A stretch of DNA of 64,000 nt from positions 7,755,001 through 7,819,000 of the forward strand of contig NZ_CP121650.1 in the NCBI RefSeq assembly GCF_029714405.1. The letters are read 5' to 3'. Under the pieces are notes generated by a model. It made no database searches. It was not told where the DNA came from and saw nothing but the letters and a program-made list of their open reading frames with translations. How positions within the stretch are numbered: the first letter of the stretch is position 1; each line of letters begins with the position of its first letter. The translations under genes were made by a program, and so were the position numbers. This document shows, one piece after another, positions 12,885 to 62,651 of this stretch. The DNA comes from Bradyrhizobium sp. CB82 (GTDB lineage Bacteria; Pseudomonadota; Alphaproteobacteria; Rhizobiales; Xanthobacteraceae).

Positions 12885-14711
12885 ATGTGTGGCATCTGTG
12901 GATGGATTGACTTCGATCGTGACCTGGGAGGTCCCGAGGCGCGACGCGAGCTTGCTAACATGACTGCCACCATGGCTTATCGCGGCCCGGACGACGAGGG
13001 GACTTGGATCGACGGACCTGCGGCGCTGGGACACCGCCGCCTAGCAATCATCGACATCGAGGGCGGTAGCCAGCCAATGACGCTCCAGGAGGACGGCAGA
13101 CCCATGTTGGTACTCGTCTATACAGGCGAGACGTATAACTACAGCGAGCTGCGTCAACGGCTCGCCGGCTTAGGTCATCGATTCGACACGAGCAGTGACA
13201 CCGAGGTGGTTCTGCACGCCCACAGCGAGTGGGGCCACCGAGATCCGCGCGGCGCCGTGAATGAACTAAATGGGATGTTCGCCTACGCAATTTGGGATAC
13301 CGCCAAACGCGAACTGCTTCTCATACGCGACCGGCTCGGCATCAAGCCGCTTTACTATTACCCTACACAGCATGGAGTATTGTTCGGCTCCGAGCCAAAG
13401 GCAATCCTCGCCAATGGTCTTGCGGAACGAATCATGGACGCAGACGGGCTTCGTCGCGCCCTATGCTCCTTCGCAGACCCGCACAACGCCGTTTTCCGGG
13501 GCATGCATGAGGTACAGCCCGGCCATATCGTCCGCGTGAGCCGCGATGGCATCCAGCAGATGGCCTACTGGCAGCTCAGCGACAGCGGGCACACCGATGA
13601 CTTGCCTACCACCGTTCGGCGCGTCCGCGAGCTGCTCGACGACACGATCCAACGGCAGCTCATCGCGGACGTACCGCTGTGCACGCTCTTGTCGGGCGGG
13701 CTTGACTCCTCGGCCATGACCGCACTGGCCGCGCGCTTCAGCGACGAGCGGATCCGGTCATTCGCCCTCGACTTCGTCGGCTACACCGACAACTTTATCC
13801 CCGGCCCGATGTGCGCCACACCCGATGGGCCGTACGTGCAGGAGGTCTCGAAGTTCGTTGGTACGGACCACACGGACATTACGTTGTCCGCGGACGAACT
13901 CATGGACGCGAATGTGCGAGCCGCCACCCTCCATGCCCGCGACTTGCCGTTCACCATGGGCGACATCGACAGCTCTCTTTATCTCCTGTTTAAGGCAATC
14001 CGGCAACATGCGACGGTGGCTCTGTCCGGGGAGTCGGCCGACGAGCTTTTCGGCGGTTACTGCTGGTTTCACGATCCCGCGTTCGTTCAGGCGGACAAAT
14101 TTCCATGGTCCGGCGGCACGTGGTATGACACTGACCAATATCTGGACCCGGACCTCGTCGAGAACCTCGACCTCCCACGCTATCTCGACGAGCAGTACCG
14201 CAAGGCACTCGCAGAAGTACCCGCCCTGACCGGGCCGGCCTCTACCGATCCGCATGAGCGTCGCATGCGCGAGGTCTGCTACCTCGCTCTCACACGCTTC
14301 CTTCCGATGCTGCTCGACCGCAAGGACCGGCTAAGTATGGCTTCGGGTCTCGAGGTGCGGGTCCCCTACTGCGACCACCGCCTTGTCGAGTACGTGTTTA
14401 CTATCCCGTGGGCCCAAAAGACTTTCGACGGGCGCGAGAAGAGCCTCCTGCGGGCCGCCACCGCGAATCTGCTGCCGCGGTCGGTGGTGCAGCGGGTCAA
14501 GAGCGGGTATCCGGCTATTCAGGATCCGATCTACGCCACAATGCTGCGCAGACGGTTCACCGCGCTGCTAAATGATCGCACTGCGGCGGTAGCACCACTG
14601 CTGTCCGTCGACGGCTCCCGTGCGTTGCTCGACGCAAACATCTGGCAGGTGGAGCGTATCCTGGCCCTTCAGGATTTCCTGACCGATTACAACGTGAGCC
14701 TTAGGGTTTGA
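12885..14711 (+). CDS. Asparagine synthetase-like glutamine amidotransferase (AsnB family)
   Basis: 608 residues. The start is fixed by the MCGICG end: Cys2 becomes the N-terminal glutaminase nucleophile. AAGGAG lies 8 bases upstream. Class II glutaminase domain: RGPDDEG 33-39, GHRRLAIID 49-57. The oxyanion-hole motif normally NGE is TGE here (80-82). The synthetase domain has the PP-loop SGGLDSS 270-276 and SGESADELFGGY. Family members use glutamine, ATP and aspartate to make asparagine, or amidate or cyclise other carboxylates. The gene is isolated between two IS nests, with no housekeeping neighbours, so a specialised biosynthetic role is plausible. True asparagine synthesis cannot be excluded. 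Confidence 0.88.
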   Translation: MCGICGWIDFDRDLGGPEARRELANMTATMAYRGPDDEGTWIDGPAALGHRRLAIIDIEGGSQPMTLQEDGRPMLVLVYTGETYNYSELRQRLAGLGHRFDTSSDTEVVLHAHSEWGHRDPRGAVNELNGMFAYAIWDTAKRELLLIRDRLGIKPLYYYPTQHGVLFGSEPKAILANGLAERIMDADGLRRALCSFADPHNAVFRGMHEVQPGHIVRVSRDGIQQMAYWQLSDSGHTDDLPTTVRRVRELLDDTIQRQLIADVPLCTLLSGGLDSSAMTALAARFSDERIRSFALDFVGYTDNFIPGPMCATPDGPYVQEVSKFVGTDHTDITLSADELMDANVRAATLHARDLPFTMGDIDSSLYLLFKAIRQHATVALSGESADELFGGYCWFHDPAFVQADKFPWSGGTWYDTDQYLDPDLVENLDLPRYLDEQYRKALAEVPALTGPASTDPHERRMREVCYLALTRFLPMLLDRKDRLSMASGLEVRVPYCDHRLVEYVFTIPWAQKTFDGREKSLLRAATANLLPRSVVQRVKSGYPAIQDPIYATMLRRRFTALLNDRTAAVAPLLSVDGSRALLDANIWQVERILALQDFLTDYNVSLRV

Positions 14712-15309
14712 GACGGCGGAACACACATAAGCTGTGAATGCCGCTACGAATTTCTTCAGATATGACGAGGTATACTTCACCAGGCGGGTTTCGGCGCATC
14801 AGCGCGTGAGATGATCTTGTTTCCCATTTTTGGGTTGGCCGTCCCGCGGCGCTTGTGCTGAGATTGGCGCGGCAATAGCTTTGAGTATCCGTGCTCTGCC
14901 CTGGCGAAGCCATAGAGCCTTCGATTTGGCGTGGTGGCAGCGGTTGTGACCGCGGCATCGCCGAATTCCTCAGCCTACTCGGCAAATCCGATGTCCGCTA
15001 GCCATAGCGCTGCGTTCATAGCGGGCGTTGGCCGGCTGGAAAGCAAAAATGGATCACCTCGTTGTGGCCGATGAAGTCGAGCCGCGCGAGAGCAACAATC
15101 CAGTTCTTGGCTACGCAAGTGTGGAATGAGAACTCAAGTCGAGTCGGCGCGCGTTTTGATGGTCGAAGCGGACCGCAGCGCCGTCTTTGCTCTGCCGGTT
15201 CCCATGCATCGCGACGCCCACATCGCAACAGCCAAACTTTGGCAGAAGCGCCGCTTTCTTGCTGAGCGCAGTCTAAAGCTTGATGGCATTAGGTTCGATA
15301 GCCTGAATT
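14712..15309. other. Non-coding or degenerate stretch after asnB-like gene
   Basis: No recognisable gene. The minus frame that runs through 15134-15310 is only read-through beyond the IS630 remnant. Confidence 0.4.
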
Positions 15310-15775
15310 TTTTGAGATAGTTGGCGCATTCGTCTGGGGTGAAGGTATCAAGTGCCTGGCCGATTGCGGCGCAAACCGCATCGACGGTTCGCGCGGCAGC
15401 TTTGCGGAGCAGGTGCTTGAGCTTGGCAAAGATCTGTTCGATCGGGTTCAGGTCGGGCGAGTATTTTGGCAGGAAGAAGAGTTTGGCGCCGGCGGAACGA
15501 ATGAGCTGGCGCACGAGCTTGCTTTTGTGGCTGCCGAGATTGTCCATGACCACGATGTCGCCGGGACGAAGGGTCGGCAGAAGAACCTTCTCGACATAGG
15601 TCCGAAAGCTCACGCCGTCGATCGGCCCCTCGATGAACCATGGCGCATCGATCCGGTCATGGCGCAGGGCTGCCAGGAAGGTCATGGTCTTCCAGCGCCC
15701 GTGGGGCACCTTGGCAGGGAGGCTGCGCGCGCGCGGTGCCCATCCCCGCAAGGGAGCCATGTCGGGCCTGGTCCA
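15310..15775 (-). pseudogene. IS630-family transposase, C-terminal exon
   Basis: Reads TWTRPDMAPLRGWAPRARSL, the conserved IS630 DDE segment IVVMDNLGSHKSKLVRQLI, and YSPDLNPIEQIFAKLKHLLRKAAARTV to ECANYLKKF, then decays. The first exon base is at 15775, directly behind the 3' end of intron C. This target (the IS630 MAPLRGW segment) resembles that of RmInt1, which inserts in an IS630-family element of Sinorhizobium (established). The N-terminal half of the same transposase type lies at 23150-23518 on the same strand. Confidence 0.85.
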
Positions 15776-17330
15776 GGGGTGAGTAGGCCGGAGGATTTTC
15801 ACCCCCGGCACCGGGTCACCGGAGGCGGTCGCCCGCCCCCGGTTCCCACAGAACGTGGCGTGCGGATTTCCCGCACCGACGCTCTTCGACAGTTGGTTCA
15901 CAGCACTGCAAGCGCCTGCAGCTCCCGATAAGCGCAGCTTAGGCTTCAGCACCGGTGTCCGTTCTTTGATTTGGTGGAAGGCGTCCCAAGTGAGGCGACG
16001 ACCCGCCCAGCTGCGGCTGCACAACATCTTGCGCCAGTAACGCTCGACGACCCGATAGACTTTTACGAGGCTCCGGAGATTTCCGGCGACACCGTAATAG
16101 CCATAGTGGCCGCGCAGGACGACGTTGATTTCATCGGCCTGGTCACTGATCTTGTAATGCCGTATTCGCCGCATCAGCTCCTGCAGAGACATAAGGCTGC
16201 GCTTTAGCCGAGATTTCTCGGTACGCATCCCAACCTTGAAGTTGCCTCGTTGGTTTCGCGTGCAATAGAGCGTTAGACCCAGAAAGTAGATTGTTTCCGG
16301 GCGGTTTCTGCCGCGTTTGCCCGCGTGTCTTTGCGCGAACCGACCAAACTCGACCAACTTGGTCTTGGTCGGCTCTAGAGTGAGGCCGAACTTCCCCAAC
16401 CGAAGACGCAAGGCCTCCTGTACGCGGATGGCGTCCGATCGATATTGGAAGCAGATCACAAAGTCGTCGATATAGCGCACCAGTCGGGCTTCGCCCCGCA
16501 ACCGGCCCTTCACCACGCGTTCGAACCAGAGGTCGAGAACGTAATGAAGGTAGAGGTTGCTCAAAAGCACACTGATCGATCCGCCTTGTGGCGTTCCTTG
16601 TTCGCTCGGATGCACCGCTCCGTCTTCCAAGACACCCGCTTTCAACCAGCGCCGGATCAAGCTGATCAGGCGCGGTTCGACAAACCGGAGGACCCAATCA
16701 TGATCGAGACTCCCGAAGAAGTTCTTCAAATCCGCCTCCAACACCCAGCTGATCATGCCGCCGGCGATGACCTCATTGAGGGTCGCCAAGGCGTGATGGG
16801 CGCTGAGCTTCGGCCTGCCGCCGAACGAGCAGGGCAAGAAGTCCTGCTCGTAGATGGCGGACAACACCGCAGCCGTGCTGCGCTGGAGCGCCCGGTCGGC
16901 GACAGTTGGAACCCCGAGGGGCGCTTCTCCGTCTTACCGGGCTTGGGGATATAGACACGCCGAATGTTCGGCGCCCGATATCCCTGTCGGTGGATGGATT
17001 GGAGCATCGGCTCGATCCATCCGTCGAAGCTCTCCTCGCCGCCTCCACCGTCTGTCCGTCCACCCCGGCGGCGGAGCGCTTCGGAATCTGTAATAGATTC
17101 TTTTGCACTCGATCGCGCGTGATGTGATGGGCCAACGAGGTGAAGCAAAGATTTGGCTCGCGCCGAGCTTTCACTGCTATTTGTTCAAGTTTCGTTTCCA
17201 TGGTCAGCTGATCTTCTCTTAGAATAGAAGGCCGTGACTCCCGTTGAATGGAGCCCATGTCGCCCAAGAACAATTCAACTACCGCTGACCGCTTCCCCAT
17301 GTAGTCGGCTCTCCCGACCTCCGAGTGTCG
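15776..17330 (-). mobile_element. Group II intron C, 5' truncated
   Basis: Domain V is at 15851-15884 (GTGCGGGAAATCCGCAC stem) and the 3' end is near 15776. The 5' side shares sequence with the corresponding part of intron E (CTCGGAG...GGGA.AGCCG) but begins mid-domain at about 17320-17330, where it abuts the 3' end of intron D. Roughly the first 350 bases of the intron are therefore missing. Confidence 0.7.
15898..17201 (-). pseudogene. Group II intron RT pseudogene (intron C)
   Basis: The N-terminus METKLEQIAVKARREPNLCF and GVDGQTVEAA at 17201-17050 is followed by two frameshifts, at about 17045 and 16870. From there to 15930 the frame is open, with DLKNFFGSLDHDWVL, EQGTPQGGSISVLLSN and the catalytic YIDDFVICFQ. 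An extra base near 15930 bypasses the normal stop (ELQALAVL), which opens the frame through domain V into the IS630 exon and makes a 577-codon artefact. Same intron class as E. Confidence 0.85.
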
Positions 17331-30135: not shown

Positions 30136-31143
30136 ATGCGGGTAGCAGTCGTGTGGAACGAGGAGCCGATCGAGATCAATCTACCCGGTCGGCCTACTCT
30201 GGAAGATCACCGCGCGGCGGTTAAAAGCGTAGTGGCCGCTCTACAAGAGAGTGGCCACGAGACGCTGCTGTGCGGGGGCGATAAAGGAATGCTCGCTACA
30301 CTCGAGCGATTCATGCCACCCGATCCGCAAGCCCGCCCCTCCGGAATGGTCTTCAATATGGCATACGGAAGTAAGGGCGAGTGGCGTTGCAGCCAGGTTC
30401 CGACCCTTCTTGAGATGGCCGGCATTCCGTACACCGGACGGAGTCCGCTCGGGGCTGCGCTGGAGCTCGACAAGGTCATCACCAAGAAGCTCATCCGCGA
30501 TGACGGCGTGCCGACGCCGAACTTTCGGGTGATGCGTTGCGGCACCGAAAGCACCGGTGACCTGCGATTCCCGCTGATAGTGAAGCCACGTCACGGGTTC
30601 AACAGCTTTGGATTACAACTCATAAATGAGCCTAGCGGTCTGAGCCAAGCCGTAGAAACCATCGTCACGCAATATGCGCAGGATGCACTTGTGGAAGAAT
30701 ACATCGAGGGGCGGGAAATCAGCATCTGCCTGCTGGGAAACGAAGAGCTCGAAGTGTTGCCTCCGGTGGAGCACGACTTCGGCAACCGCGAGACTCGTCT
30801 TATCACCTCGGAAGACAAGCATTATATGGCGGTCGCGGGACCACAGAAGATTTGCCCAGCGCGAATCGGGAGTGGGCTTGCGACGATGCTCCGGGATATT
30901 TCGGTTGCGACCTTCCGCGCCTGCCTTGGCCGGGACTTCGCCCGTGTTGACCTCCGGATCGACCGCTCCGGCCAGCCTTTTGTCCTCGAGATCAATTTCA
31001 GCCCGTCACTCTATGATAAGCACTCTTACGTCCGGGCTGCGACGACCGGCGGATACAGCTTCTCAACCTTGGTCAATCACATCCTAGATCTCGCCCACAC
31101 GCGGTATTTCGGAATCGGCATCTCAAGGCAGAACGCGCGCTGA
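30136..31143 (+). CDS. ATP-grasp ligase, D-alanine-D-alanine ligase-like
   Basis: 335 residues; ATG with AGGGAG six bases upstream. Domains: an N-terminal Rossmann-like part (1-95, including GEWRCSQVPTLLEMAGIPYTG), then ATP-grasp with LIVKPRHG (147-154), the adenine-contact segment VEEYIEGREI (177-185), VDLRID (261-266) and the metal-binding EINFSPSLY (275-283). True Ddl enzymes have ExNxxPG at this last motif. Here SPS replaces the P-G, and the omega-loop differs, so the substrate is probably not two D-alanines. The protein should join a carboxylate to an amine through an acyl-phosphate. It lies behind a sigma-54 promoter and before an RpiR regulator; no cell-wall genes are near. Confidence 0.85.
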   Translation: MRVAVVWNEEPIEINLPGRPTLEDHRAAVKSVVAALQESGHETLLCGGDKGMLATLERFMPPDPQARPSGMVFNMAYGSKGEWRCSQVPTLLEMAGIPYTGRSPLGAALELDKVITKKLIRDDGVPTPNFRVMRCGTESTGDLRFPLIVKPRHGFNSFGLQLINEPSGLSQAVETIVTQYAQDALVEEYIEGREISICLLGNEELEVLPPVEHDFGNRETRLITSEDKHYMAVAGPQKICPARIGSGLATMLRDISVATFRACLGRDFARVDLRIDRSGQPFVLEINFSPSLYDKHSYVRAATTGGYSFSTLVNHILDLAHTRYFGIGISRQNAR

Positions 31144-43366: not shown

Positions 43367-43401
43367 GAACTTTGATCTCTTAGGAATGAACTTTGAGAGC
43401 G
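43360..43401. repeat. 21-bp tandem duplication at BKACE stop
   Basis: CTCTTAGGCATGAACTTTGA and CTCTTAGGAATGAACTTTGA stand side by side with one base different. The right copy includes the BKACE stop codon; the left copy holds the ATG of the following pseudogene. Confidence 0.8.
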
Positions 43402-44270: not shown

Positions 44271-44444
44271 CCACTTCTCCTTTCGCTGAAAGCTTGACCT
44301 GTCCGAAGCCAACCAGACGGGTTCATGTCATGATGTCGATTTTGGAGCGTCAGCGCATTGGCCAGGATCAGTCGACCACGTCTCATCGGAACTCCTGACC
44401 AAAGGCCCGTGGCGAACACCTTGGCCAGGCAGGCCTTAATTCCA
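44271..44444 (-). other. 5' leader of BKACE transcript
   Basis: About 160 bases between the predicted sigma-54 start (near 44433) and the BKACE ATG. No upstream reading frame of note. Confidence 0.5.
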
Positions 44445-47804: not shown

Positions 47805-50246
47805 CTAAGCAGGCCTTCTTTGTTGTTGCGAGCTTCCTTCGGGAAGTACATTTGTACCGATGATTCCCTCCCTCGCTAATTGCGCCATCGCTGCGTCAGA
47901 CAAGCCAAGAAGTCCCGATAAAACCTCTATGTTGTGCTGTCCCAACGTCGGCGCTGCAGCGCGGATAGGATAGGGCTCAGAACCTTCGCGAATCGGCAAT
48001 GATAGCTGCGGATGCCGGCCTATGAAAGCGCGTTCGACTTCCTGCAGAAACGCACGCGACTGGAGATGTCGATCCTCGAGCAGATCAATTGGCAGACGGG
48101 CTACGCCGGCGGCAACGCCTGCGGCTTGTAACTCATACATGGCCAGATCGGCGTCCCGAGTGAGTGTCCATGCTTCAATGCCTCTCTCGAGAACATCTTC
48201 GATGCTCCGACGAATTTCCTCGGATTTGAGCGACGGGTCCGCGGCCCAGTCAGGGCGGCCAATTACGTGGGCAAGCCTGTGCCACATGTTTTCGTTCGTC
48301 GCGGCTACCATGATCCAATTGTCTTCACCGGCGCATCGGAAGCAGCCATGCGGCACGAATTGCGGATGCCGATTGCCAAGCCTTCTCAGCGACGTGCTGT
48401 CGAGTGAATGAGCGGTGATCCACGGCGCCGCAAATGGCATCATGCATTCGATCTGGGCAAGATCGATGAACTGTCCCTGCCCTGTGTTGCGGGCGTGGAT
48501 CAGGGCGACCAGAACTGCAGCGCAGCCGTTTAACCCACCGACGGCATCCCCAAACGCAATGTGGCTCATCACTGGTGGGCCGTCGGCATTTCCGATCACG
48601 CTTGGTAATCCTGAACCCTGCTCGAGAGTCGAGCCGTAGGCCCGGCAATCGCGATTGACGCTATTTGCGCCAAACGCTGACATTGACATCATGACTAGCC
48701 GCGGGTTAAGCGTTTTTAGTACGTCATAACCAAGTCCGAACTTCGGAAGCACATCGACCGAATAATTGTCGACGACAATATCAGCTCTCGCCACAAGCCG
48801 TTTGGCGAGAGCAAGGCCCTGCTGCCGCGTGAGGTCGAGCGTGATTCCGCGCTTGTTGCGGTTCATAGTACAGAACCGCACTAGCTTTTCGTACATCTGC
48901 GCATCGATATAGGCCCGCCCTCGATCAACGCCGCGCCACCAGTCTGGATATTGGATAGCCTCAACCTTGATGACGTCCGCTCCGAGATCAGCCAGCGTGC
49001 GCGTACACAACGGACCTGCCCAACCCATCGAGAAGTCGATGACCCGAATTCCCTGCAATGGCGGCCGGGTCGTGTCGATACGGCTGGGTGATGGCAACCC
49101 AGTGCCGGCCAGATCTCTTGGCATATTCTGCGCGCTCTGCCGCTCGCCGAGGGCGGGAACCTTTCCGCCCCGACGCGGCGGCGTCAATGTCAACCGTTGC
49201 GCCGAACCGACCGCTAAGCCCTCCTCTTCGCCAAGCCAGACAGGCACAATCGCCCCTCGCACTTTCTTCTCCATGTCCTGGAGCAAATCGGATATTTCCG
49301 GGACTGGCACGATCGGTATCCTTCGTTTTCGCCCATCTGCGAACCATTCCTGGGCAGTCCGCGACTTCAACCTCGGCGTAAACGCTTGTTCAATCTGTTC
49401 CAGGTTTTTCAGACGATCTTCGCCGAGGACCAAAGCGGACTGATCACGCAATTCCGATAGGCCGAGCATGTCACAGAATGCCCGCCATTGTGCCGGTGTT
49501 GCCACCGTAACGCCGAGCCAACCCTTTCTGGTTTCGTAAATGCCAACCGGAGAGCCTGGCCAAAAACGGTTAATGCCGATCCGACGCATCACGTCACCGT
49601 GCGCAAACGCCTCTGACATGAGATACTCACTGAGAGAAAGGCTGGATTCGAAAATACTGAGCGACCACGACCGTCCCCCTCCGCCTTGCGCCTGCGCAAC
49701 CACCGAGGAAGCCGCGGCAATGAATCCCCACAGGCCGGCAAGGATGCCCGTTTGGAAATCCGGTGCGTGCATCGGCGGGCCCTCGACGGGGCCAACCAAG
49801 CTGATAAGGCCGGCAAGCGCGCGAACGGTTGAATCCGTTGCGGCAAATCCAGAATAGGGCCCCTTCGGGCCGAACCAGCTCCCTTGAAGGCAAATCAACC
49901 CAGGACGGAGCTGCCGGATCGCGGCCAAATCAATGAACGGGCAGTCTGCGGGATCGACGTCGCGACCATCGATCAGAATGTCACAGTCCTCGATTAACGC
50001 TGTCAGTCGTCTGCTTGCCTGTCGTGCGATGGGATCGATTACGATGCTTGACTTGTTGAAGTTCAGAAAAGCGAACCAGGCGCTCTGCGCGCTCGGCGTG
50101 AGTGGCAGGCTTCTTCTAAGTGGATCCCCTTTTGGCGGCTCGATCTTCAGAACATCGGCACCAAAATCTGCGAACAGTCGCGCACAATAACTGGTTGATG
50201 CCGAGCTACCGATTTCGACCACCCGCAGATGCGACAACACTCCCAT
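47805..50246 (-). CDS. Tandem class III CoA-transferase (CaiB/BaiF family, two domains)
   Basis: 813 residues; the ATG at 50246 has GGAGG six bases upstream and gives MGVLSHLRVVEIGS, the usual family start. An ATG four codons earlier lacks a ribosome site. Two full CoA-transferase III domains lie in one chain: about 1-375 (RLFADFGADVLKIEPPKGDP, GPYSGFAATD, HAPDFQTGILAG) and about 395-790 (RVIDFSMGWAGPLCTRTLADLGADVIKVE, NRNKRGITLDL, SHIAFGDAVGGLNG). Each has the Asp that forms the acyl-aspartate intermediate in formyl-CoA transferase. Such proteins move CoA between carboxylates such as carnitine, succinate or aryl acids. Single gene, no operon partner; a donor-acceptor pair fitting the BKACE or MaoC products is possible but unproven. 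Confidence 0.9.
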   Translation of the reverse strand: MGVLSHLRVVEIGSSASTSYCARLFADFGADVLKIEPPKGDPLRRSLPLTPSAQSAWFAFLNFNKSSIVIDPIARQASRRLTALIEDCDILIDGRDVDPADCPFIDLAAIRQLRPGLICLQGSWFGPKGPYSGFAATDSTVRALAGLISLVGPVEGPPMHAPDFQTGILAGLWGFIAAASSVVAQAQGGGGRSWSLSIFESSLSLSEYLMSEAFAHGDVMRRIGINRFWPGSPVGIYETRKGWLGVTVATPAQWRAFCDMLGLSELRDQSALVLGEDRLKNLEQIEQAFTPRLKSRTAQEWFADGRKRRIPIVPVPEISDLLQDMEKKVRGAIVPVWLGEEEGLAVGSAQRLTLTPPRRGGKVPALGERQSAQNMPRDLAGTGLPSPSRIDTTRPPLQGIRVIDFSMGWAGPLCTRTLADLGADVIKVEAIQYPDWWRGVDRGRAYIDAQMYEKLVRFCTMNRNKRGITLDLTRQQGLALAKRLVARADIVVDNYSVDVLPKFGLGYDVLKTLNPRLVMMSMSAFGANSVNRDCRAYGSTLEQGSGLPSVIGNADGPPVMSHIAFGDAVGGLNGCAAVLVALIHARNTGQGQFIDLAQIECMMPFAAPWITAHSLDSTSLRRLGNRHPQFVPHGCFRCAGEDNWIMVAATNENMWHRLAHVIGRPDWAADPSLKSEEIRRSIEDVLERGIEAWTLTRDADLAMYELQAAGVAAGVARLPIDLLEDRHLQSRAFLQEVERAFIGRHPQLSLPIREGSEPYPIRAAAPTLGQHNIEVLSGLLGLSDAAMAQLAREGIIGTNVLPEGSSQQQRRPA

Positions 50247-50975
50247 CAAGGCCTCCATTTTGATAGTCTGAATTATGGTCTATTGCGCGATGCGGGGCAC
50301 GGCACACTGCCTGCTTGCAATCGGCCATAAGCTGGAGGCGCCAGAACCGAACGCAGAGTCTTTTCCAACGCTGTCTTCTGGGCGAACTCGCCGACCTGTA
50401 GATGCGACAAGATATGGAGGTGCCGTCGGCGCACGCTCTGCAACTTTGTTGCTGCAACGCCCTCCGTCGGCGCCGGCAACCAGGCGGTAGCTAATGCTCC
50501 AGCCTCTGGCCTCCGAATTGGGCCATGCCGCGCCTGAAGAAAGAACGAAAGCCCGCATCGTGAGACGTGCAACGATTTCTCCACGTTATTGCTCATTGTA
50601 CCGGCTGAGCCGCATCATCGCTCAGATCGTCAGCCGATCCTACGCCATTAGCAAGTGATCGAGGCACTACCTACTCTGGTGAGGAGATTTAGTATAGTTG
50701 AGAGCTGAGAAAGACTATTGGACGGTATTGGCATTCAACTGCGGCATTGAGCGATGGCCGAGTCAGTTCGCCTCGGTCTCTCGATCGGCGTGCGGTGTGG
50801 GTGAGGCCGGCTTGTAATCGGTAACGATCACGCGATCGTCGACCTACAGTTGTGCGCAGAGAAGGTCCGCCCGCACGATGACAGGCCGATGCCCTTCGTA
50901 CGATGATCACCACGTCTCGGCGGCGCAACCGATCTAGAGGGGTCCTTCTCGCAAGCCGGGCGCGGACGGTGGCGC
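50247..50975. other. Intergenic upstream of CoA-transferase gene
   Basis: No gene recognised and no sigma-54 element. CTACCTACTCTGGTGAGGA at 50667-50685 also occurs, with one change, at 37983-38001 upstream of the KamA-like gene. Confidence 0.4.
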
Positions 50976-51999: not shown

Positions 52000-53130
52000 T
52001 CACAGTGGTTTTGACTCTTTGGAGGTCGTTGGATAGGCGCGGCGGAGTTTGGCGCGGGCTTTGTCGGTTGTGAACATCCACTTGATGCGTTGTCGGGTTT
52101 TATTTCGCGGCCGTTGCCATGCAGCGATCTCGTTTCGGAGCCTTTTGGGGTCGTCGATGCGACGGCCGAGACATTGACGCTGCAGCACGCTGATCTCGCA
52201 CTCGACCATGTTGAGCCAACTTGCGTGTTTCGGGGTGTAGTGGAATTCGAGGCGGCGCAGGATGCGACGGGCCTCGGCAGGCGCAAATGCTTGATACAGC
52301 GCGCCGGCGGTATGAATCGACAGATTGTCCTGAACGACACGGATGCAGGCGGCGTCGGGATAATGGATGTCGACGAGTTCACGCATGCAGTGCGCGTAGT
52401 CCACGTCGGCGCGGCGGTCTGTAACCTTGACGTTGCGCCAGCCACGATGCGGGTCGAAGGTAACGAAGAGATTGACGGTGCCGTTGCGGCGGTACTCGTA
52501 ATCGTAGCGCTCGCGCTGTCCCGGCTCGGCTGGAATCGGCTGACGGACCTCGCCGATGAGCTGGACGGGGGTCTCGTCGAAGCAGACCAGCGGCCGGACG
52601 GGATCCGGCGCCTCGGCGTAGAGGTCGAGCACGTCCTCCATGCGGGCGACGTATTCGCCATCGACATGGGGGATGCACCACATGTCCCTGCGCCATGGCT
52701 TGAGGTCGTTCTCGGCCAGCCGGCGACGCACGGTCTCGCCCGACAGGCTGTCATGATCGGTGAGCTTGACGATCGTGTCGGCCAGCAGCGTCAGCGTCCA
52801 ACGTTTGCGGTCGGCGGGCGGCTTGGCGCATGCCGTCGCCACCAGCAGGGCCTCCTCCCTGCCGGTCAGCTTGCGCTCTGCGCCCGGACGCGGCTCCTCG
52901 CTCAAGGCCCGCTCCAGATTGCCTTCCACGAAGCGGCGCTTGGTCCGGCCGACGCTGGACAGGCTGACCCGGACGGTTCGGACAATCTCCGCGTCGCAAC
53001 TACCGGCATCGGCCGCCAGCAAAATCTGCGCCCGCTTGAGCTTGCGGGCGGCATGCTTGCCGCCGCCGCGCATCGCCGTCAGTTCGTCCCGCTCGATTTG
53101 GCTCAATTCGACCCGATAACGTACATTCAT
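52000..53130 (-). CDS. IS630-family transposase, intact
   Basis: 376 residues. HTH region CDAEIVRTVRVSLSSVGRTKRRFVEG with a long linker, then the DDE core: VCFDETPVQLIGE (first Asp), VVQDNLSIHTAGAL (second Asp), HASWLNMVECEISVLQRQCLGRRI (Glu). No lesions. The mobile copy is bounded by good terminal repeats, so it may be active. It differs from the other IS630 types in the window. Confidence 0.92.
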   Translation of the reverse strand: MNVRYRVELSQIERDELTAMRGGGKHAARKLKRAQILLAADAGSCDAEIVRTVRVSLSSVGRTKRRFVEGNLERALSEEPRPGAERKLTGREEALLVATACAKPPADRKRWTLTLLADTIVKLTDHDSLSGETVRRRLAENDLKPWRRDMWCIPHVDGEYVARMEDVLDLYAEAPDPVRPLVCFDETPVQLIGEVRQPIPAEPGQRERYDYEYRRNGTVNLFVTFDPHRGWRNVKVTDRRADVDYAHCMRELVDIHYPDAACIRVVQDNLSIHTAGALYQAFAPAEARRILRRLEFHYTPKHASWLNMVECEISVLQRQCLGRRIDDPKRLRNEIAAWQRPRNKTRQRIKWMFTTDKARAKLRRAYPTTSKESKPL

Positions 53131-54385: not shown

Positions 54386-54753
54386 ATCTCTCGTCCGCTT
54401 CGTCATCACAGCCCGTCAGAAAGGCGATGACGCGCCGGCTGCACTCCTTTGAAAGTGAAATTCGTACTCCTTACGATCCGGATCGCATCCACGATGCTGC
54501 TGCCGAGAAAAGGCGCCAAGCCGCATACCAAACAATCCTTCGCGATCGCTCGACGGTGCTATGGTTGCGATAAGTGGCCACGCGACTTCGCCCTGCTTGA
54601 TTTGGTAGCTACCCAAGCGAGGCAGCCTGGTGATTTAGTTCGTTGGAACCAAGGGCCGAACGAGCTGCCCATAAGATTTGTACAGAGACCTGCAGTCCAG
54701 CCGCTAAGCCTGACGGCGAGCGGGCGCAGCTGAGCGGTCGGAACACATTAACA
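54386..54753. other. Upstream region of the oxoamine synthase gene
   Basis: 368 bases. A plus frame 54449-54733 has no family resemblance. No sigma-54 element, and no strong ribosome site before 54754. Confidence 0.4.
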
Positions 54754-56031
54754 ATGAAGAATGAAATGCAACAGCCGATCGCTCCCACCGAAGGCGGTCG
54801 CCCAAGTGGACTGTTTCGGAACACTGCCCACGCGATCAGCGAGAGCAGGCCATATTTCGATACAGTCCCGATCGCTAGTCTCATGGCCGCCCATGGACGC
54901 TCTGCGACCGGATGCGCTGTTGCCTGGGGCAACGGTCTACTTGACGGCTGTCCGCGTGTGATTGATTTTGCGCGATGCTCTTACCTTGGCCTCGACAATC
55001 ATCCGATGATCGTCGCCGGAGCAATCGAGGCGATCGAGTCGCATCGGTCATTGCATTGGCCCAGCGCCCGGACGCGACTCAATTTCGATCTTCTGGGAGA
55101 GCTTGAAGAAGGCCTCTCTGAGATTTTTCGCGCCCGTGTGCTCGCTTTTTCCAGTGGCATGCTCGCCAATCTGGGGGCGATGCCCATCCTTGCTTCGGGT
55201 CAATTGACGGGCGGCAGGAGGCCGCTCATCGTGTTCGATCGATCTGCACGCATCTCGCTTGCCTATCACAAGCCGTTGGCGACTGATGAAACCCGGGTGA
55301 AAGCGATCTTGCACAACGACCTAGACGCTCTTGAACGCTTGTGCCGCGAAAATCCCGTGGTGGCCTATGTGTGCGATGGTGTTTACTCCATGGGAGGCTA
55401 TTCACCGATGAAGGAACTGCGTCAGCTCCAGGAACGGTATGGTCTCTTTCTCTATATTGACGATGCTCACGGTATATCGATCTTCGGACGCAAAGGCGAA
55501 GGATTTGCTCGCTCTCAGTTTCCTGAAGTGCTCGGTGGCCGAACGATTATAGCAGCCTCTCTCGCCAAGGGATTCGGCGCATCGGGCGGCGTATTGATGC
55601 TTGGAGTGGCGGATCACGAGGCGCTGTTTCGACGATATTCCATTCCGTATGCATTTTCTGAGGCGCCAAATCTTGCTGCAGTTGGTGCGGCGCTTGGGTC
55701 GTGTAAAATTCACCGCTCGGCAGAACTCGGCCGGCGGCAGCGGCGGTTGGCGCAACGGATCCACGTCTTCGACCGTCGCATTGCGACCGCCGAGCAGGGC
55801 AATGCACTTCCGATCAGAAACATCACTGTCGGATCGGAGGCCAATGCGATTGCAATCGCTAGAGGGCTTCTCGACTGCGGCTTCCATACCATCCCAAGTG
55901 TCAGGCATGGAAAGGCGGGACTTTGGTTGTGCATTACAGCGGAGCATGAGGTTCGCGACATAGAGCGACTGTGCGACGCGATCTTGCAAAAAGTAGCCGA
56001 AAGCACGGGAAAGCCGTACCCTCTCAGGTGA
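54754..56031 (+). CDS. Alpha-oxoamine synthase family (8-amino-7-oxononanoate synthase-like), PLP enzyme
   Basis: 425 residues from ATG at 54754. The frame is open back to 54643, but the extra part looks non-coding. Fold-type I: DFARCSYLGLDNHP (71-84), FSSGMLANLGAMP, VCDGVYSMGGYSPMKEL, DDAHG (236-240) and the PLP lysine Lys272 in SLAKGFGASGGV. The family joins an acyl-CoA to an amino acid with loss of CO2, as in biotin, sphingolipid, haem and CqsA-type signal synthesis. The usual GSR...H motif is SARTRLNFDL here, so this is not ordinary BioF. No biotin genes are near. The gene ends 22 bases before a complete IS21 element that may have cut it off from partners. Confidence 0.85.
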   Translation: MKNEMQQPIAPTEGGRPSGLFRNTAHAISESRPYFDTVPIASLMAAHGRSATGCAVAWGNGLLDGCPRVIDFARCSYLGLDNHPMIVAGAIEAIESHRSLHWPSARTRLNFDLLGELEEGLSEIFRARVLAFSSGMLANLGAMPILASGQLTGGRRPLIVFDRSARISLAYHKPLATDETRVKAILHNDLDALERLCRENPVVAYVCDGVYSMGGYSPMKELRQLQERYGLFLYIDDAHGISIFGRKGEGFARSQFPEVLGGRTIIAASLAKGFGASGGVLMLGVADHEALFRRYSIPYAFSEAPNLAAVGAALGSCKIHRSAELGRRQRRLAQRIHVFDRRIATAEQGNALPIRNITVGSEANAIAIARGLLDCGFHTIPSVRHGKAGLWLCITAEHEVRDIERLCDAILQKVAESTGKPYPLR

Positions 56032-56304: not shown

Positions 56305-57114
56305 TCATTTCTTGGCTCCCCTCGACGGTATGCCATCCGCTGCGGTTGGTGTCGCGGGCTGCGCCAGCGGCTCGATTGCTTCGGCGACTTTGATCTTGCG
56401 CATCGACGGGCCGTCGAGTTCGAGCCGGTAGGCATTGTGGACAATGCGATCCAATATCGCATCGCCAAGAGTGGGCTCGCCAATAACCTCATGCCAAGTT
56501 GCCACGGGGAGTTGGCTGGTGATGAGGATGGAGCCGCGGCCATGACGGTCCTCGACGATCTCCATGAGATCGCGCCGCTGGCTGGCTGAGAGGCGGTCGG
56601 GTCCCCAATCGTCAAGGACGAGCAAATCGACCTTGACCAGCATCCGGAATAGCCGCGCGAAGCGGCCGTCACCGTGGGCGAGATCGAGATCGGCGAACAG
56701 CCGTGGCACGCGGGCGTAGTGGACTGTGTAGCCATCGCGGCAGGCCTTCTGCGCGAGCGCGCAGGATAGCCACGACTTGCCCACGCCGCACGGGCCGCTG
56801 ATCAGCAATCCGCGGTGCTCGGCGATCCAGCGGCACGTTGCCAATTGCTGGAACAGCGCTTTGTCGAGCCGGCGCGGCGTCCGGTAATCGACGTCCTCGA
56901 TTGCGGCTTGGCTGTGACGCAGCCGAGCGGCACGCAGTCGGGTCTGGAAGCGGCGGGTGTTGCGATTGGCGGCCTCGCGGTCGAGCAGCAGCGCCAACCA
57001 TTCGGCGTGCGCGAGATCGCGGGTCTCCTCTTGCGCTTCGAGCTCGACGAAAGCCTGCGCCATGCCGTCGAGCTTGAGCGCTCTGAGCTGGTCGAGGGTG
57101 GGGTGTGTGAGCAT
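56305..57114 (-). CDS. istB: IS21 helper ATPase IstB
   Basis: 269 residues. AAA+ ATPase with Walker A GPCGVGKSWLSCAL, Walker B LLVLDDWGP and sensor region GSILITSQLPVATWHEVIG. It assembles on target DNA and activates IstA. Starts 14 bases after istA stops, behind GAGGAGATGACGACTG. A short alanine/proline tail (AQPATPTAADGIPS) ends the protein. Confidence 0.92.
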   Translation of the reverse strand: MLTHPTLDQLRALKLDGMAQAFVELEAQEETRDLAHAEWLALLLDREAANRNTRRFQTRLRAARLRHSQAAIEDVDYRTPRRLDKALFQQLATCRWIAEHRGLLISGPCGVGKSWLSCALAQKACRDGYTVHYARVPRLFADLDLAHGDGRFARLFRMLVKVDLLVLDDWGPDRLSASQRRDLMEIVEDRHGRGSILITSQLPVATWHEVIGEPTLGDAILDRIVHNAYRLELDGPSMRKIKVAEAIEPLAQPATPTAADGIPSRGAKK

Positions 57115-57128
57115 CAGTCGTCATCTCC

Positions 57129-58664
57129 TCAATGGAAGTAGGTTGGGCCGCGGATATTGTCGTGCGCTATCGCCGGCCCGTCCGCGGACGTTGCAGGCCG
57201 CTGGCGATCGAGGTTGTTCTTCAGGATCGAGTTGACTGAGCTATAGGAGCGCGCACCGATCTCGAGCGCACGACTGCAGGCGGCTTCGAGCCGTTCGCGG
57301 CCATAGCTTTTGGCGAGCCGCAGGATGCCGACGCAGGCGCGGAAGCCTTGCTCGGGATGCGTGCGCTCCTGCAGGATGATCTCGACGAGCGCCGAGGTGT
57401 GGCGCCCGATCTCTTCGGCCTGCCGCCGCAGTCGCTCCGGCGTCCAGTCGGCATAGCGTCGATGGCTCGATGGCATGTGCTCGCGCACCGTCGTGTGCTT
57501 GCGATTCGAGGATGAGCGCACATGGGCGGCGACGCGTTGGCCGCGGTGGAAGACTTCGATCGTGCGTGCGGTGATACGCGCCCAAATCGTCTCGCGCAGC
57601 AACTGGTGCGGCACCGAGTAGTAGTGCTTCTCGATCTCGACGTGGTAGTCGAGCCCGACCCTGCATTCCTTCCATTCGGCAAAAACATAGAGCTCGGCCG
57701 GCAACGGCTTGAGGGCTGGGCGCTCCAGCTCCTCGAAGAGCGCGCGGCGGCTCGCACCGAGGTGCCGCGACATGCGGTCATTGATCTGCGTGACCAGCTC
57801 GGCAATGGCCGCGTTCAATGCCGTGAGCGAGAAGAATTGCCGGTTGCGTAGCTTGGCGATGATGAAGCGGGTCGCGACTTGGACTCCAACTTCGGCCTTA
57901 GCTTTATCCCGAGGCCGATACGGCCGCGCCGGCAGAATTGTGGTGCTGTAGTGAGCCGCCATCTCGGCGTAGCTGCGATTGACCGCCGGTTCATAGAAGC
58001 ACGCTTTGGTGATGCCCGATCGCAGATTGTCGCACACCACCGTCGCCGGAACCCCGCCCATGAATGCAAAAGTGCGCGTGTGCGAACCGATCCAGTCGGA
58101 CAGCCCCTGCGTCCAGCTGGCCTCGGCGTATGTGAGGCTCGATGCACCGAGCACGGCGACGAACAGCTGCGCCGTCATCGCTTCGCCGGTCGATGCGTCG
58201 ATCACCGCAAGCGTCGTGCCGGCGTAATCGACAAACATGCGCTCGCCAGCGACGTGGCTCTGCCGCATGGTCGGCGACAGCCGCGCCTCCCAGGCGCGAT
58301 AGAGTTCACAGTAGCGGCTGATGCCGTAACCATCGGGGTGGACGGCGCGATGCTCCTCCCATAACAGCTGCAGCGTCACCCCCGGCCGGCGCAGTTCGCG
58401 GTGAATAGCCGCCCAGTCCGGCTGCGGCCGCCGATCCTTGGCCACGACCGCAGGCGGCGGGAAGAGCTGGCGCTCCAGAGCTTCGTCACTCAGGCCGTCC
58501 GGCAGCGGCCAGGCGAGGCCGGCACGCCGCGCCCGCCGGATGCACTCCCCGGCGGCCGTCGCGCTCACCCCGAGGCTGGCGGCGATCTTGCGTTTGGACA
58601 TACCGGCTGCGGACAGCCGCAGCACGTCACGGATCTTGCGCATGGGTAATCTCGGTCTAGGCAT
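57129..58664 (-). CDS. istA: IS21 transposase IstA
   Basis: 511 residues. Start chosen at 58664 (MPRPRLPMRKIRDVLRLSAAG); an upstream extension covers the terminal repeats. HTH MSKRKIAASLGVSATAAGECIRR, then the rve domain with GERMFVDYAGTTLAVID (Asp), PATVVCDNLRSGITKA (Asp), RDKAKAEVGVQVATRFII (Glu), and the IstA beta-barrel tail. Intact. Confidence 0.92.
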   Translation of the reverse strand: MPRPRLPMRKIRDVLRLSAAGMSKRKIAASLGVSATAAGECIRRARRAGLAWPLPDGLSDEALERQLFPPPAVVAKDRRPQPDWAAIHRELRRPGVTLQLLWEEHRAVHPDGYGISRYCELYRAWEARLSPTMRQSHVAGERMFVDYAGTTLAVIDASTGEAMTAQLFVAVLGASSLTYAEASWTQGLSDWIGSHTRTFAFMGGVPATVVCDNLRSGITKACFYEPAVNRSYAEMAAHYSTTILPARPYRPRDKAKAEVGVQVATRFIIAKLRNRQFFSLTALNAAIAELVTQINDRMSRHLGASRRALFEELERPALKPLPAELYVFAEWKECRVGLDYHVEIEKHYYSVPHQLLRETIWARITARTIEVFHRGQRVAAHVRSSSNRKHTTVREHMPSSHRRYADWTPERLRRQAEEIGRHTSALVEIILQERTHPEQGFRACVGILRLAKSYGRERLEAACSRALEIGARSYSSVNSILKNNLDRQRPATSADGPAIAHDNIRGPTYFH

Positions 58665-58848
58665 TGCCCCCCGCTCCTTGTGGAAAAGGAGCGAAGCCAT
58701 GCCGATTCGCGGATTACCCAACGGCCTCCATCACACCCGTCCACAGGCTGGTCGCGATCGCCCGGAATGGGTGGTCGCGATCAATCGTAGCGGCTGGTCG
58801 CGATCCATCGTAGCGGGTGGTCGCAATCAATCGTAGCGCGCAGCTAGC

Positions 58849-60120: not shown

Positions 60121-60136
60121 GCGCGTTCGGAAAGGC

Positions 60137-60997
60137 TCAGTTCAGCAGCGTCTGCCCATGCCTGGCGATTGTAACTTGACGCTCTCGAACATAAGCTTCG
60201 AACGAAACCGAATTGCCATCCTTCCACAGATTAACCGTAATGATCTCGCCCGGGAACACTGGGGCAGTAAAGCGGACACGATGACGATGGAAGGCTGAGG
60301 GATCGTAGTCCGCATACGTCTGCAGTACGGCCCTGCAGGTCAGTCCATACGTGCACATCCCATGGAGAACGGGATTGGGAAAACCGGCCAGACGCGCGAA
60401 TTCCGGATCGCTATGCAAGGGATTTCGATCACCCGACAAACGATAGAGCAGCGCTAGGTCGTGCCGGATCCGTACATCGATGGATCTGTCCGGCGCTCGA
60501 CAGGGTACCTGGTGCGGCTCGGGCATTCCCTCTGATGGTCCGCCAAAACCACCGTCGCCCCTGGCGAAGGTCGAAGAGAGTATAGTAACAATCTTATCGC
60601 CATCGCAATCTCGGACGACGACTTCGTCCTGAATGATGGCGCCTTTCGCCTTGCCCTTGTCGTACACGCCGCGTACGCACGCATCCGCCGTAACGCTGGC
60701 AGCTACAGGTATCGTCTTGTGAAATATGATATCCCGTTCGCCATCAACCGCCATGACGCGGTTCAGGTCGATGACTCCGGGTCGAGCCCCCCAAACGCAG
60801 ACCGAGGCGAATGTCGGAACCACCTTCAGCGCCTTGGGCGTTGCATATACCTCGTTGACAAACTGCAGCTCCCTTTCGTTTAGGGGATCTGAACCCATGC
60901 CGATGCCAAGCGCATAAAGCATCACCTCACGATCGGTCCACGAATAGTTAGCGGCTTGGGTTTTGAGATGGAGTACCGCGGGATAGTCAATTGGCAT
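60137..60997 (-). CDS. MaoC-type (R)-enoyl-CoA hydratase, double hot-dog
   Basis: 286 residues from ATG at 60997 (AAGGAAAGAGCAC upstream); a longer frame has no ribosome site. N-terminal hot-dog (YSWTDREVMLYALGIGMG, VPTFASVCVWGARPG, IIFHKTIPVAASV) and a C-terminal catalytic hot-dog with the hydratase-2 motif LYRLSGDRNPLHSDPEFARLAGF (184-206; Asp190 and His195 catalytic), then VLHGMCTYG. The layout matches eukaryotic-type hydratase 2 and bacterial PhaJ-like proteins, which add water to trans-2-enoyl-CoA to give (R)-3-hydroxyacyl-CoA. Its neighbour 300 bases upstream on the same strand is the LLM monooxygenase. The substrate may be a short or branched acyl-CoA. Confidence 0.9.
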   Translation of the reverse strand: MPIDYPAVLHLKTQAANYSWTDREVMLYALGIGMGSDPLNERELQFVNEVYATPKALKVVPTFASVCVWGARPGVIDLNRVMAVDGERDIIFHKTIPVAASVTADACVRGVYDKGKAKGAIIQDEVVVRDCDGDKIVTILSSTFARGDGGFGGPSEGMPEPHQVPCRAPDRSIDVRIRHDLALLYRLSGDRNPLHSDPEFARLAGFPNPVLHGMCTYGLTCRAVLQTYADYDPSAFHRHRVRFTAPVFPGEIITVNLWKDGNSVSFEAYVRERQVTIARHGQTLLN

Positions 60998-61298
60998 GTG
61001 CTCTTTCCTTATTGCTGTCCCTGGCGTCAGGCAGGGTAGCAGGAGCTGAGTTCGCGCGCTCATGCTGGTTACGCCATCAACGAGCTTCATGAGCCTCCCG
61101 TGTTGCGGAACCCGGGGCTCGATACATGTCCGACGTCGCGCGCGAGAACAGACCTCGGATGTCATGGGGTTGGGCGTGTCGCGCTGCCAGCAGACAGCTC
61201 CGCTGCCGACCTCCGGCCTCCAAAGTTTTTAATTTCGATTATCCAATCCGGCAATGCTTGCAGCGTCAAAGCCTACGGCCGTGATCCTCTGCGCACGT
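60998..61298. other. Intergenic, LLM to MaoC
   Basis: 301 bases with no gene. No terminator seen, so MaoC may be read from the LLM transcript. Confidence 0.4.
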
Positions 61299-62651
61299 TC
61301 ACCGACGAGTACTTACGCCTGCCAGCTCGAACCGATTGAGTGGTCGCTTGAGACAGAGATTCTCTCTTAGTGTTTGTCCGGCATATCTGGACCTGAATTT
61401 GCCTCGTCGTCGCAATTCGGGAATGACAAGATCAACAAAATCTTTGAGTCCGCCGGGAACGGCCGCCGGCATCACATTGAATCCATCAGCGGCACGTTGA
61501 TCAAATCCATCCACCATGACGTTAGCGATTTCGTCTGGCGTTCCAACGACCATGAGCTGGCCTTTGCTGTCCGATACCCAACGGAACAGTTGTCTCCAGG
61601 TGAATCTCTCGCGTACGGCCAAGTCAAGGATCAGCTTCTGAGTACTCTGGATGAAATTCGTCTGCGGTAAAGTCTCCGGGACCAACGAATCGAGGTCCAT
61701 TAAACGTACGTCAAACCCCAGCAAATGCTCGGCCAATCCAATCTCCACGTCGATGTGCGTGTCCGATTGTAATCTTTGAAGCTTCTCAGACGCTTCTTGC
61801 TTAGTCCGCCCGACAATTGGGACAATGCCCGGCATGACGATCACCTGATCGTCCTCCCGCCCCAGTCCGCGGGCCTTCTCCTTGAGAGTTGCGTAATATC
61901 TTTTTGCGTTCTCTAAAAAAGGCGCGGCGGTGAACACGACCTCGCCGACTTCTGCACCGAACTGCATTCCGTCATCCGATGCGCCAGCCTGAACCAACAC
62001 GGGATACCCTTGAGGCGGCCGCGCGATGTTCAGCGGGCCTCTGACCGAGAAATGGTTCCCACGGTGATCAAGCAAATGCAGCTTCGTGGGGTCAGCGAAA
62101 ATACCACTTTGTTTGTCGCGAATGAAAGCGTCGTCTTCCCACGAGTCCCAAAGCCCCTGCACGACTTCTACAAATTCTCTCGCTCGAGCAAAGCGCGCGT
62201 CATGATCTGCTAGCTCGTCATCGCCAAAATTGGGGGCTTCGAACTTCACTTCCGAGATAACAATATTCCAGGCCGCACGTCCTCTCGACAGGTGGTCGAG
62301 TGATGCGAACATGCGTGCAAGATGATATGGCTGGTGGTACGTGGTTGTCGCCGTCCCCACGAGGCCGATGTTCTGTGTTTTCGATGAAAGCGCCGACAAA
62401 AGCGTAATCGGCTCGAACCCATCGTTTCGACCTACGCGAGCTATCTGTAGGTAGTCTCTCTCTGATATGCATGGGCTATCGGCAAGAAATACGAAATGAA
62501 ATGCCGCACCCTCAGCGAGTGCTGTCAGATGAGCATAATGGTCGATATCGACTCCGCCGTTTGCAGGCACGCCGGGAGCGCGCCATGCACCTTCGTGAGC
62601 TCCCGCCTGAGCGAGCAACAGTCCGAGCTTCATTTCATCGTTACGCCGCAT
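61299..62651 (-). CDS. LLM-class flavin monooxygenase (NtaA/SnaA/DszA family)
   Basis: 450 residues. ATG at 62651 with AAGGAAGGTACGAT before it; the open frame extends upstream without a ribosome site. Luciferase-like TIM barrel: MKLGLLLAQAGAHEGAWRAPG, HYAHLTALAEGAAFHFVFLADSP, FEPITLLSALSSKTQNIGLVGTATTTYHQPYHLARMFASLDHLSRGRAAWNIVIS, RPPQGYPVLVQAGASDDGMQFGAEVGEVVFTA. The family uses FMNH2 from a separate reductase and O2 to oxidise organosulfur, nitrilotriacetate, pristinamycin or similar substrates. No flavin reductase lies in the window. Downstream is MaoC. Cytoplasmic. Confidence 0.9.
   Translation of the reverse strand: MRRNDEMKLGLLLAQAGAHEGAWRAPGVPANGGVDIDHYAHLTALAEGAAFHFVFLADSPCISERDYLQIARVGRNDGFEPITLLSALSSKTQNIGLVGTATTTYHQPYHLARMFASLDHLSRGRAAWNIVISEVKFEAPNFGDDELADHDARFARAREFVEVVQGLWDSWEDDAFIRDKQSGIFADPTKLHLLDHRGNHFSVRGPLNIARPPQGYPVLVQAGASDDGMQFGAEVGEVVFTAAPFLENAKRYYATLKEKARGLGREDDQVIVMPGIVPIVGRTKQEASEKLQRLQSDTHIDVEIGLAEHLLGFDVRLMDLDSLVPETLPQTNFIQSTQKLILDLAVRERFTWRQLFRWVSDSKGQLMVVGTPDEIANVMVDGFDQRAADGFNVMPAAVPGGLKDFVDLVIPELRRRGKFRSRYAGQTLRENLCLKRPLNRFELAGVSTRR

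Follow-up and report, generated by a model that had tools for sequence, protein, structure and literature searches.

The window analysed here is a stretch of 64,000 nucleotides of Bradyrhizobium sp. CB82 (positions 7,755,001 to 7,819,000 of the main contig; genome of 10.14 Mb), lying about 160 kb from nodC and 200–225 kb from nifH and nifD. It carries an alpha-oxoamine synthase (AOS), a fused double CoA-transferase (CoAT), a beta-keto acid cleavage enzyme (BKACE) with a short-chain dehydrogenase (SDR), a MaoC-family hydratase, a luciferase-like monooxygenase (LLM), a KamA-family radical S-adenosylmethionine (SAM) enzyme, an ATP-grasp ligase, an RpiR-family regulator, an AsnB-like amidotransferase and a threonine aldolase-like enzyme (Table 1). 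A preliminary description of the window had listed these eleven as intact genes surviving among dead insertion sequence (IS) copies. All eleven are present as long open frames of the stated families (Pfam, NCBIfam), and remnants of IS110, IS21 and IS630-type (DDE_3) elements and pieces of group II intron reverse transcriptase (RT) indeed lie between and beside them; intactness holds less well for AOS, which is altered at conserved positions, and a truncated dehydrogenase had gone unlisted. The genes are real, but they do not make up one intact pathway. On balance, we lean towards the view that a symbiosis-island gene cluster survives in the window in a worn and partly repurposed form, together with part of a second module.

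Table 1. Enzyme genes, regulator and mobile elements discussed in the text (window coordinates).
Feature	Position	Strand	Family evidence and remarks
AsnB-like glutamine amidotransferase/synthetase	12885-14711	+	PF00733, GATase_7; TIGR01536 467 bits, cut-off 267
D-Ala-D-Ala-ligase (Ddl)-like ATP-grasp ligase	30136-31143	+	PF07478
RpiR-family regulator	31719-32654	+	HTH_6 and SIS
KamA-family radical SAM enzyme, aminomutase-like	36805-37899	-	TIGR00238 193 bits, cut-off 199 (6 bits short)
GntG-type pyridoxal phosphate (PLP) aldolase, threonine aldolase-like	40110-41177	-	NF041359 423 bits, cut-off 230
SDR dehydrogenase of BKACE unit	41521-42351	-	PF13561
Truncated carnitine-3-dehydrogenase/thioesterase-like remnant	42398-43420	-	PRK07531 over part of profile
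BKACE	43380-44312	-	PF05853 306 bits, positions 2-274 of 274
Fused double class III (CaiB) CoA-transferase (CoAT)	47805-50258	-	PF02515 in two stretches
IS630-type transposase between CoAT and AOS	52000-53130	-	DDE_3 and HTH_32
AOS, PRK07505 group	54643-56031	+	NF005697 432 bits, cut-off 342; conserved start near residue 38
IS21 istB/istA pair between AOS and MaoC	56305-58721	-	PF01695, Mu-transpos_C_2
MaoC-family (R)-hydratase-like, island paralogue	60137-61165	-	PF01575 and MFE-2_hydrat-2_N
LLM flavin monooxygenase	61299-62738, likely start near 62651	-	PF00296

The AOS cluster in other symbiosis islands

In other nodulating Bradyrhizobium, AOS is found together with the double CoAT, an SDR, EctB, an enoyl-CoA hydratase (ECH), a GNAT-fold acyltransferase, a HemL-like aminotransferase and LLM, in the order CoAT-EctB-ECH-GNAT-HemL-AOS-SDR-CoAT-LLM, and we read this fuller cluster as the probable intact form of the window set. 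In 23 of 29 loci, CoAT is no further than about 10 kb from AOS. All nine cluster genes are open in B. cajani, where the gaps of at most 0.8 kb leave no room for a whole IS, and the arrangement recurs in B. ivorense with unchanged order and spacing. EctB of the fuller cluster scores above its curated cut-off. The family of the GNAT protein (F3) was settled by fold comparison; F3 has no Pfam family at E 0.001, with weak matches to GNAT and DUF1248 only, and a profile search against PDB sequences returned chance-level matches only.

Five of these genes (EctB, HemL-like, SDR2, ECH and GNAT) have no match in the window and its near flanks, and at 38% identity or more the only hit to any of them in 715 kb of the CB82 island is a 62.5% relative of the GNAT protein at 7.995 Mb, 176 kb from the window. 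The sole EctB match in the CB82 genome (E ≤ 1e-110) has 52% identity and lies at 2.79 Mb; this genome has no island-type EctB, which near relatives keep.

The genes that the window retains are collinear with those of B. uaiense, where SDR-BKACE-CoAT-AOS-MaoC lie within 13 kb and without the window's IS elements: neither the IS630-type transposase nor the IS21 pair has a match of at least 150 bp from the collinear B. uaiense stretch. RpiR has an 84% partial match beside MaoC in the same species. In several members of the window's clade (B. uaiense, CSA112, B. oropedii and G044), BKACE and its SDR stand with CoAT, and with AOS too where the contig reaches, and SDR orthologues of 82–92% identity adjoin BKACE in five genomes (G034, G042, G043, G044 and G049).

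We searched 80 Bradyrhizobium genomes (CB82 and 79 others) with nine window genes, nodC and, later, EctB; SDR and RpiR lay outside this search. nodC was above the cut-off in 44 of the 80. Counting CB82, AOS is carried by 17 genomes (rows above E 1e-160 left out before counting), KamA by 11, BKACE by 11, ATP-grasp by six, LLM by 18 (E ≤ 1e-180) and AsnB by three (at least 80% identity), while the aldolase, present in two copies in CB82, has no match in the other 79 genomes at E ≤ 1e-120. CoAT is carried by 20 at a cut-off of 72% identity, which falls at no clear gap as the identities are continuous; the lower rows, which occur in nodC-negative genomes too, were taken as the chromosomal type. 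The island MaoC, found in 11 genomes, has orthologues of 76–83% identity in the 10 others (rows below 75% left out before counting) and is distinct from a 59–65% copy present in 77 of the 80. At these cut-offs every carrier of a searched window gene has nodC, except one AOS carrier, G065, which presumably belongs to the B. aeschynomenes group, taken by us to be symbionts that nodulate without nod genes. AOS occurs in 15 of the 43 other nodC-positive genomes versus one of the 36 nodC-negative ones, and island-type EctB (rows below 68% left out before counting) in 24 of 43 versus one of 36 (25 carriers, one of them nodC-negative). Both markers of the cluster are almost confined to nodulating Bradyrhizobium in this sample.

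Co-occurrence was computed within the 43 other nodC-positive genomes by one-sided Fisher tests. AOS occurs with CoAT in 14 of 15 AOS genomes (p = 1.9e-6), with MaoC in all 10 MaoC genomes (p = 1.6e-6), with BKACE in nine of 10 BKACE genomes (p = 7.5e-5) and with EctB in 14 of 15 AOS genomes (p = 2.5e-4). Further associations link MaoC with CoAT (10 of 10, p = 4.8e-5), BKACE with MaoC and KamA with BKACE (each 7 of 10, p = 3.5e-4), EctB with CoAT (p = 9.7e-4), MaoC with LLM (8 of 10, p = 0.0045), KamA with ATP-grasp (four of five ATP-grasp genomes, p = 0.0075), AOS with KamA and BKACE with CoAT (p = 0.012 each), and EctB with BKACE and with MaoC (p = 0.014 each). Association is weak or lacking for LLM-CoAT (p = 0.03), KamA-MaoC (p = 0.036), AOS-LLM (p = 0.047), KamA-CoAT (p = 0.22), EctB-KamA (p = 0.25), EctB-LLM (p = 0.26), LLM-BKACE (p = 0.34) or KamA-LLM (p = 0.86), for ATP-grasp with any gene but KamA (p at least 0.22), or for AsnB with any tested gene (p at least 0.15).

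In the full cluster, EctB would make 2,4-diaminobutyrate, and the GNAT enzyme would acylate this or a similar amine. The CoA-transferase and hydratase would produce an acyl-CoA, AOS would condense an acyl-CoA with an amino acid, releasing CO2, and the resulting alpha-amino ketone would be reduced or oxidised by SDR and LLM. The likeliest predicted product is an acylated amino-ketone or amino alcohol. The start resembles that of ectoine synthesis (EctB plus an EctA-type GNAT acetyltransferase) in that the cluster has EctB and a GNAT-fold protein; it differs in that this protein lacks a Pfam assignment and the window has neither of the two genes. The enzyme families are known, but neither the combination of genes in the AOS cluster nor, as the preliminary description had remarked of its own list, a pathway for the window genes is described in the literature searched, outside which most subscription journals lie. 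With the gene set now defined, the product could be sought in nodules.

AOS relatives of 53–59% identity also occur on plasmids of Sinorhizobium, Mesorhizobium and Rhizobium (L053, L054 and L056), where their neighbours are a class III aminotransferase, an acetolactate-synthase-like thiamine pyrophosphate enzyme, an SDR, GntR and response regulators.

AOS and the acyl-CoA enzymes of the window

Compared with their orthologues, the window genes gave ratios of nonsynonymous to synonymous substitution rates (dN/dS) of 0.12–0.16 for SDR, 0.18–0.21 for BKACE, 0.13–0.17 for CoAT, 0.09–0.16 for MaoC, 0.15–0.21 for KamA, 0.14–0.15 for LLM, 0.20 for both AsnB and RpiR, 0.23–0.44 for ATP-grasp (0.44 in one comparison) and 0.27 for AOS; the aldolase gave 0.14 against its second copy in the same genome (80% identity, C1:7898022-7899059). 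Nearly all of the genes are under purifying selection (0.09–0.27, apart from the one ATP-grasp value), but the suggestion that survival among IS copies implies selection fails for AOS, the would-be amino-ketone maker, whose clade shows weaker constraint and changes at conserved sites. Since purifying selection persists on CoAT, BKACE, SDR and MaoC, the function that survives is probably the handling of 3-hydroxy and 3-keto acids as CoA esters: MaoC would interconvert enoyl-CoA and 3-hydroxyacyl-CoA, SDR would yield a 3-keto acid, BKACE would cleave it with acetyl-CoA, and CoAT would transfer CoA.

By sequence, the closest solved relative of the window AOS is Alb29 (PDB 8XHA, E 1e-72), which acts in albogrisin biosynthesis in another organism, Streptomyces albogriseolus. 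The window AOS keeps a lysine, K309 in SLAKGFGASGG, which we take to be the PLP-binding lysine. Unlike Alb29, it is altered in the conserved C-terminal loop, which is four residues short and has Trp in place of a conserved Arg. In serine palmitoyltransferase, arginines of the corresponding loop bind the substrate carboxylate (PMC11906848), and the replaced Arg would by analogy be the equivalent of such a loop arginine. The window AOS looks impaired. Among the other 119 of the best 120 of 658 AOS homologues, the PLP lysine is lost in four and the Arg in two.

The AOS tree places the window in an 11-row clade (SH-aLRT, an approximate likelihood ratio test, 95) that contains a 7-row subclade (89), and the CoAT tree contains a 7-row clade (support 100) with the same genomes as the AOS subclade when G044 and B. 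macuxiense BR 10355 are treated as one genome. Three AOS motifs were compared, the PLP lysine, the FFP loop and the Arg, and 10 of the 11 clade rows deviate at one or more of them, as against none of the 29 rows outside; B. uaiense and B. oropedii have Asn in place of the PLP lysine, and G052 has Glu. Median dN/dS for AOS is 0.297 among window-type sequences (45 pairs) versus 0.133 among the others (160 pairs), whereas for CoAT it is 0.182 (21 pairs) versus 0.157 (79 pairs). These medians use only pairs with dS of 0.15–1.2, and the groups were set before the AOS tree, partly from the AOS lesions; the tree later gave the group as one clade, plus strain 62B, which had been outside the groups. 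The AOS clade of the window is under weaker constraint, and CoAT is not. The window shows a route by which such a cluster can wear, in which the condensing enzyme drifts while the acyl-CoA enzymes stay selected.

The lysine-less AOS of B. uaiense (L101 9939-11222) and B. oropedii (L123 10001-11290) are possible pseudo-enzymes whose frames are still open and constrained. In a neutral simulation of the two, none of 1000 runs was without stops (mean of 6.4 stops). If the lysine loss is older than the split of these species, then the protein would be retained for a role outside the usual PLP chemistry.

The window BKACE covers PF05853 over its full length and contains LHIHVRD, presumably the HxH metal motif. 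Between it and SDR lies the dehydrogenase remnant, which aligns only to residues 149–461 of its full-length, 509-residue relative and lacks the first 148 residues at the N-terminus; the gene is also partial in the CSA112, G044 and B. uaiense stretches. L-Carnitine can be catabolized by a pathway that includes BKACE, and relatives of the window resemble it in having BKACE beside a 3-hydroxyacid dehydrogenase-thioesterase fusion: in CCBAU 51627, the neighbour of BKACE is a PRK07531-like dehydrogenase-thioesterase of full length, and ABC transporter genes are nearby. This arrangement, and the tight dN/dS of BKACE and SDR next to a drifting AOS, would suit a purely catabolic, carnitine-like module in which dehydrogenase/thioesterase, SDR and BKACE degrade an ABC-imported 3-hydroxy acid and AOS is a passenger. 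We regard such a module as rather unlikely, since the full-length dehydrogenase relative scores 480 bits, below the curated carnitine cut-off of 592, the gene is partial in the four stretches named above, and the linkage of AOS to CoAT is too regular for a passenger. For the same shortfall in score, carnitine itself is not supported as the substrate, and a carnitine catabolic unit was rejected as a candidate for the window.

The KamA and ATP-grasp genes

We assign KamA and ATP-grasp to a second module, to which AsnB is linked weakly. In Mesorhizobium AR10, KamA adjoins ATP-grasp (a 72% orthologue), and an RpiR orthologue (75%) is in the locus; KamA lies about 2.5 kb from ATP-grasp in G005, G058, G072 and a B. 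barranii plasmid, and RpiR has no match in the B. barranii plasmid stretch or the G005 stretch around these genes. In G019, AsnB and ATP-grasp are 4 kb apart, and in G043 a distance of 12 kb separates AsnB from MaoC. The module, comprising KamA, ATP-grasp, RpiR and possibly AsnB, might be peptide- or amide-making.

The CX3CX2C cysteines of KamA (C103, C107 and C110) and K318, probably its PLP lysine, are invariant in nine aligned sequences. Lysine fermentation runs from KamA to Kce, and the KamA- and BKACE-family proteins considered here are likewise linked and co-occurring across genomes. However, the window KamA reaches 169 of 525 bits on the curated model of lysine 2,3-aminomutase proper and the window BKACE 222 of 382 bits on the curated Kce equivalog; both assignments were rejected, and other steps of the pathway were not searched for.

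KamA loci of symbiotic plasmids also resemble the window in gene content. Mesorhizobium AR10 shares KamA, the same ATP-grasp and RpiR with the window, and in pHRC017 and CIAT 899 KamA is near biotin-carboxylase-family (ATP-grasp-like) genes and peptidases; the window, by contrast, shows no peptidases or exporters beside KamA and has AsnB besides. pRspNXC24b (L095) carries KamA, ectB, RpiR and two biotin-carboxylase-family (ATP-grasp-like) genes within about 20 kb of nif genes, and on pRtrCIAT899b (L096) genes of these kinds are scattered across about 35 kb next to nif. In both, LuxR-ectB and, slightly further, RpiR are beside nif-acdS, with KamA, the two ATP-grasp-like genes and proB beyond. 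For R. tropici CIAT 899, an orphan ectB unaccompanied by other genes of its pathway has been noted (PMC3557214). Ectoine degradation was considered from the M20, M24, aminotransferase and aldehyde dehydrogenase genes near KamA in relatives, and set aside: none of them matched the window, and among the PDB sequences listed the M24 protein shows no greater similarity to DoeA than to prolidases. A rhizolotine-like product was likewise considered; the name does not occur in the literature searched.

Weighing the readings

Several observations weigh against a worn cluster copy plus part of a second module. Clade-wide decay of AOS is at odds with B. macuxiense BR 10355, which is in the clade and keeps all three motifs, and simple decay with the open frames of the B. 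uaiense and B. oropedii AOS (dN/dS 0.275). The window AOS frame is itself open with dN/dS near 0.27, and the enzyme may therefore act on another substrate. BKACE has not taken the place of EctB, which is kept in nine of the 10 other nodC-positive BKACE genomes, including the clade members B. uaiense, B. oropedii and G043, and adjoins CoAT and AOS in G043; its loss is therefore peculiar to CB82 and G044 rather than general to the clade, and it may be this strain, not its clade, that is worn. The division into two modules is strained by KamA directly adjoining MaoC (about 70–100 bp) in G034, G059 and G079, and a span of about 7 kb in G076 takes in KamA, BKACE, the dehydrogenase remnant and AOS; the two modules are thus intertwined and not cleanly apart. 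The EctB, GNAT and AOS steps are assigned from family membership. The p-values of the 34 Fisher tests ignore relatedness and the number of tests, the orthologue cut-offs were chosen after the score lists had been seen, at gaps for all but CoAT, and derivation from the full cluster depends on the midpoint rooting of the AOS and CoAT trees.

A more speculative extension, which we put forward as improbable, concerns the island system as a whole. Rhizopine-type systems have genes to make and genes to eat a compound on one symbiotic element. In a comparable manner, EctB, GNAT and AOS might make a diaminobutyrate-linked acyl alpha-amino ketone in nodules, KamA and ATP-grasp with peptidases and transporters on the same kind of element might elaborate and reclaim such compounds, and the AOS of the window's clade might be a retained, non-condensing protein, as suggested by the lysine-less but open AOS of B. 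uaiense and B. oropedii.

The pathway originally proposed, in which all the listed enzymes cooperate on a beta-amino or amino-ketone acyl-CoA that is ligated to a second unit, is very improbable. Purifying selection on most of the genes and the linkages in G076, G034, G059 and G079 speak for it, but the aldolase is private to CB82, AsnB is unassociated, ATP-grasp is tied to KamA only, AOS is lesioned, and the window lacks five of the fuller cluster's genes. The preliminary description had envisaged unrelated distributions as counting against its proposal; the aldolase, AsnB and ATP-grasp do differ in distribution, and AOS, CoAT, BKACE and MaoC co-occur. The conservation without IS elements that it anticipated in other islands is seen for AOS, CoAT, BKACE, SDR and MaoC, more loosely for LLM, and for KamA with ATP-grasp, once with RpiR. 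The least credible explanation is a chance heap of unrelated accessory metabolic genes on an IS-rich island: symbiosis islands do gather accessory genes, and this holds for the aldolase and possibly fits AsnB, but collinearity, clade congruence and co-occurrence among nodC-positive genomes oppose it for AOS, CoAT, BKACE and MaoC, as does linkage for SDR.

Besides the genes already discussed, the window contains at 15134-16867 (minus strand) an open frame of 577 amino acids with an N-terminal group II intron RT piece and a C-terminal DDE_3 transposase, as from the insertion of an IS into the intron. The AsnB frame is listed from 12834, and its Met-Cys-Gly start is residue 18 of that frame. A 72% relative of the window LLM scores as a member of the NtaA/DmoA family. 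The same island holds extra copies of CoAT (C1:7478130-7480543), split between frames, of LLM (74%, C1:7721980-7723368) and of AsnB (82%, C1:8070002-8071840); the latter two look open from their likely starts, the stop in each being codon 4 of the matched span, ahead of the likely start.

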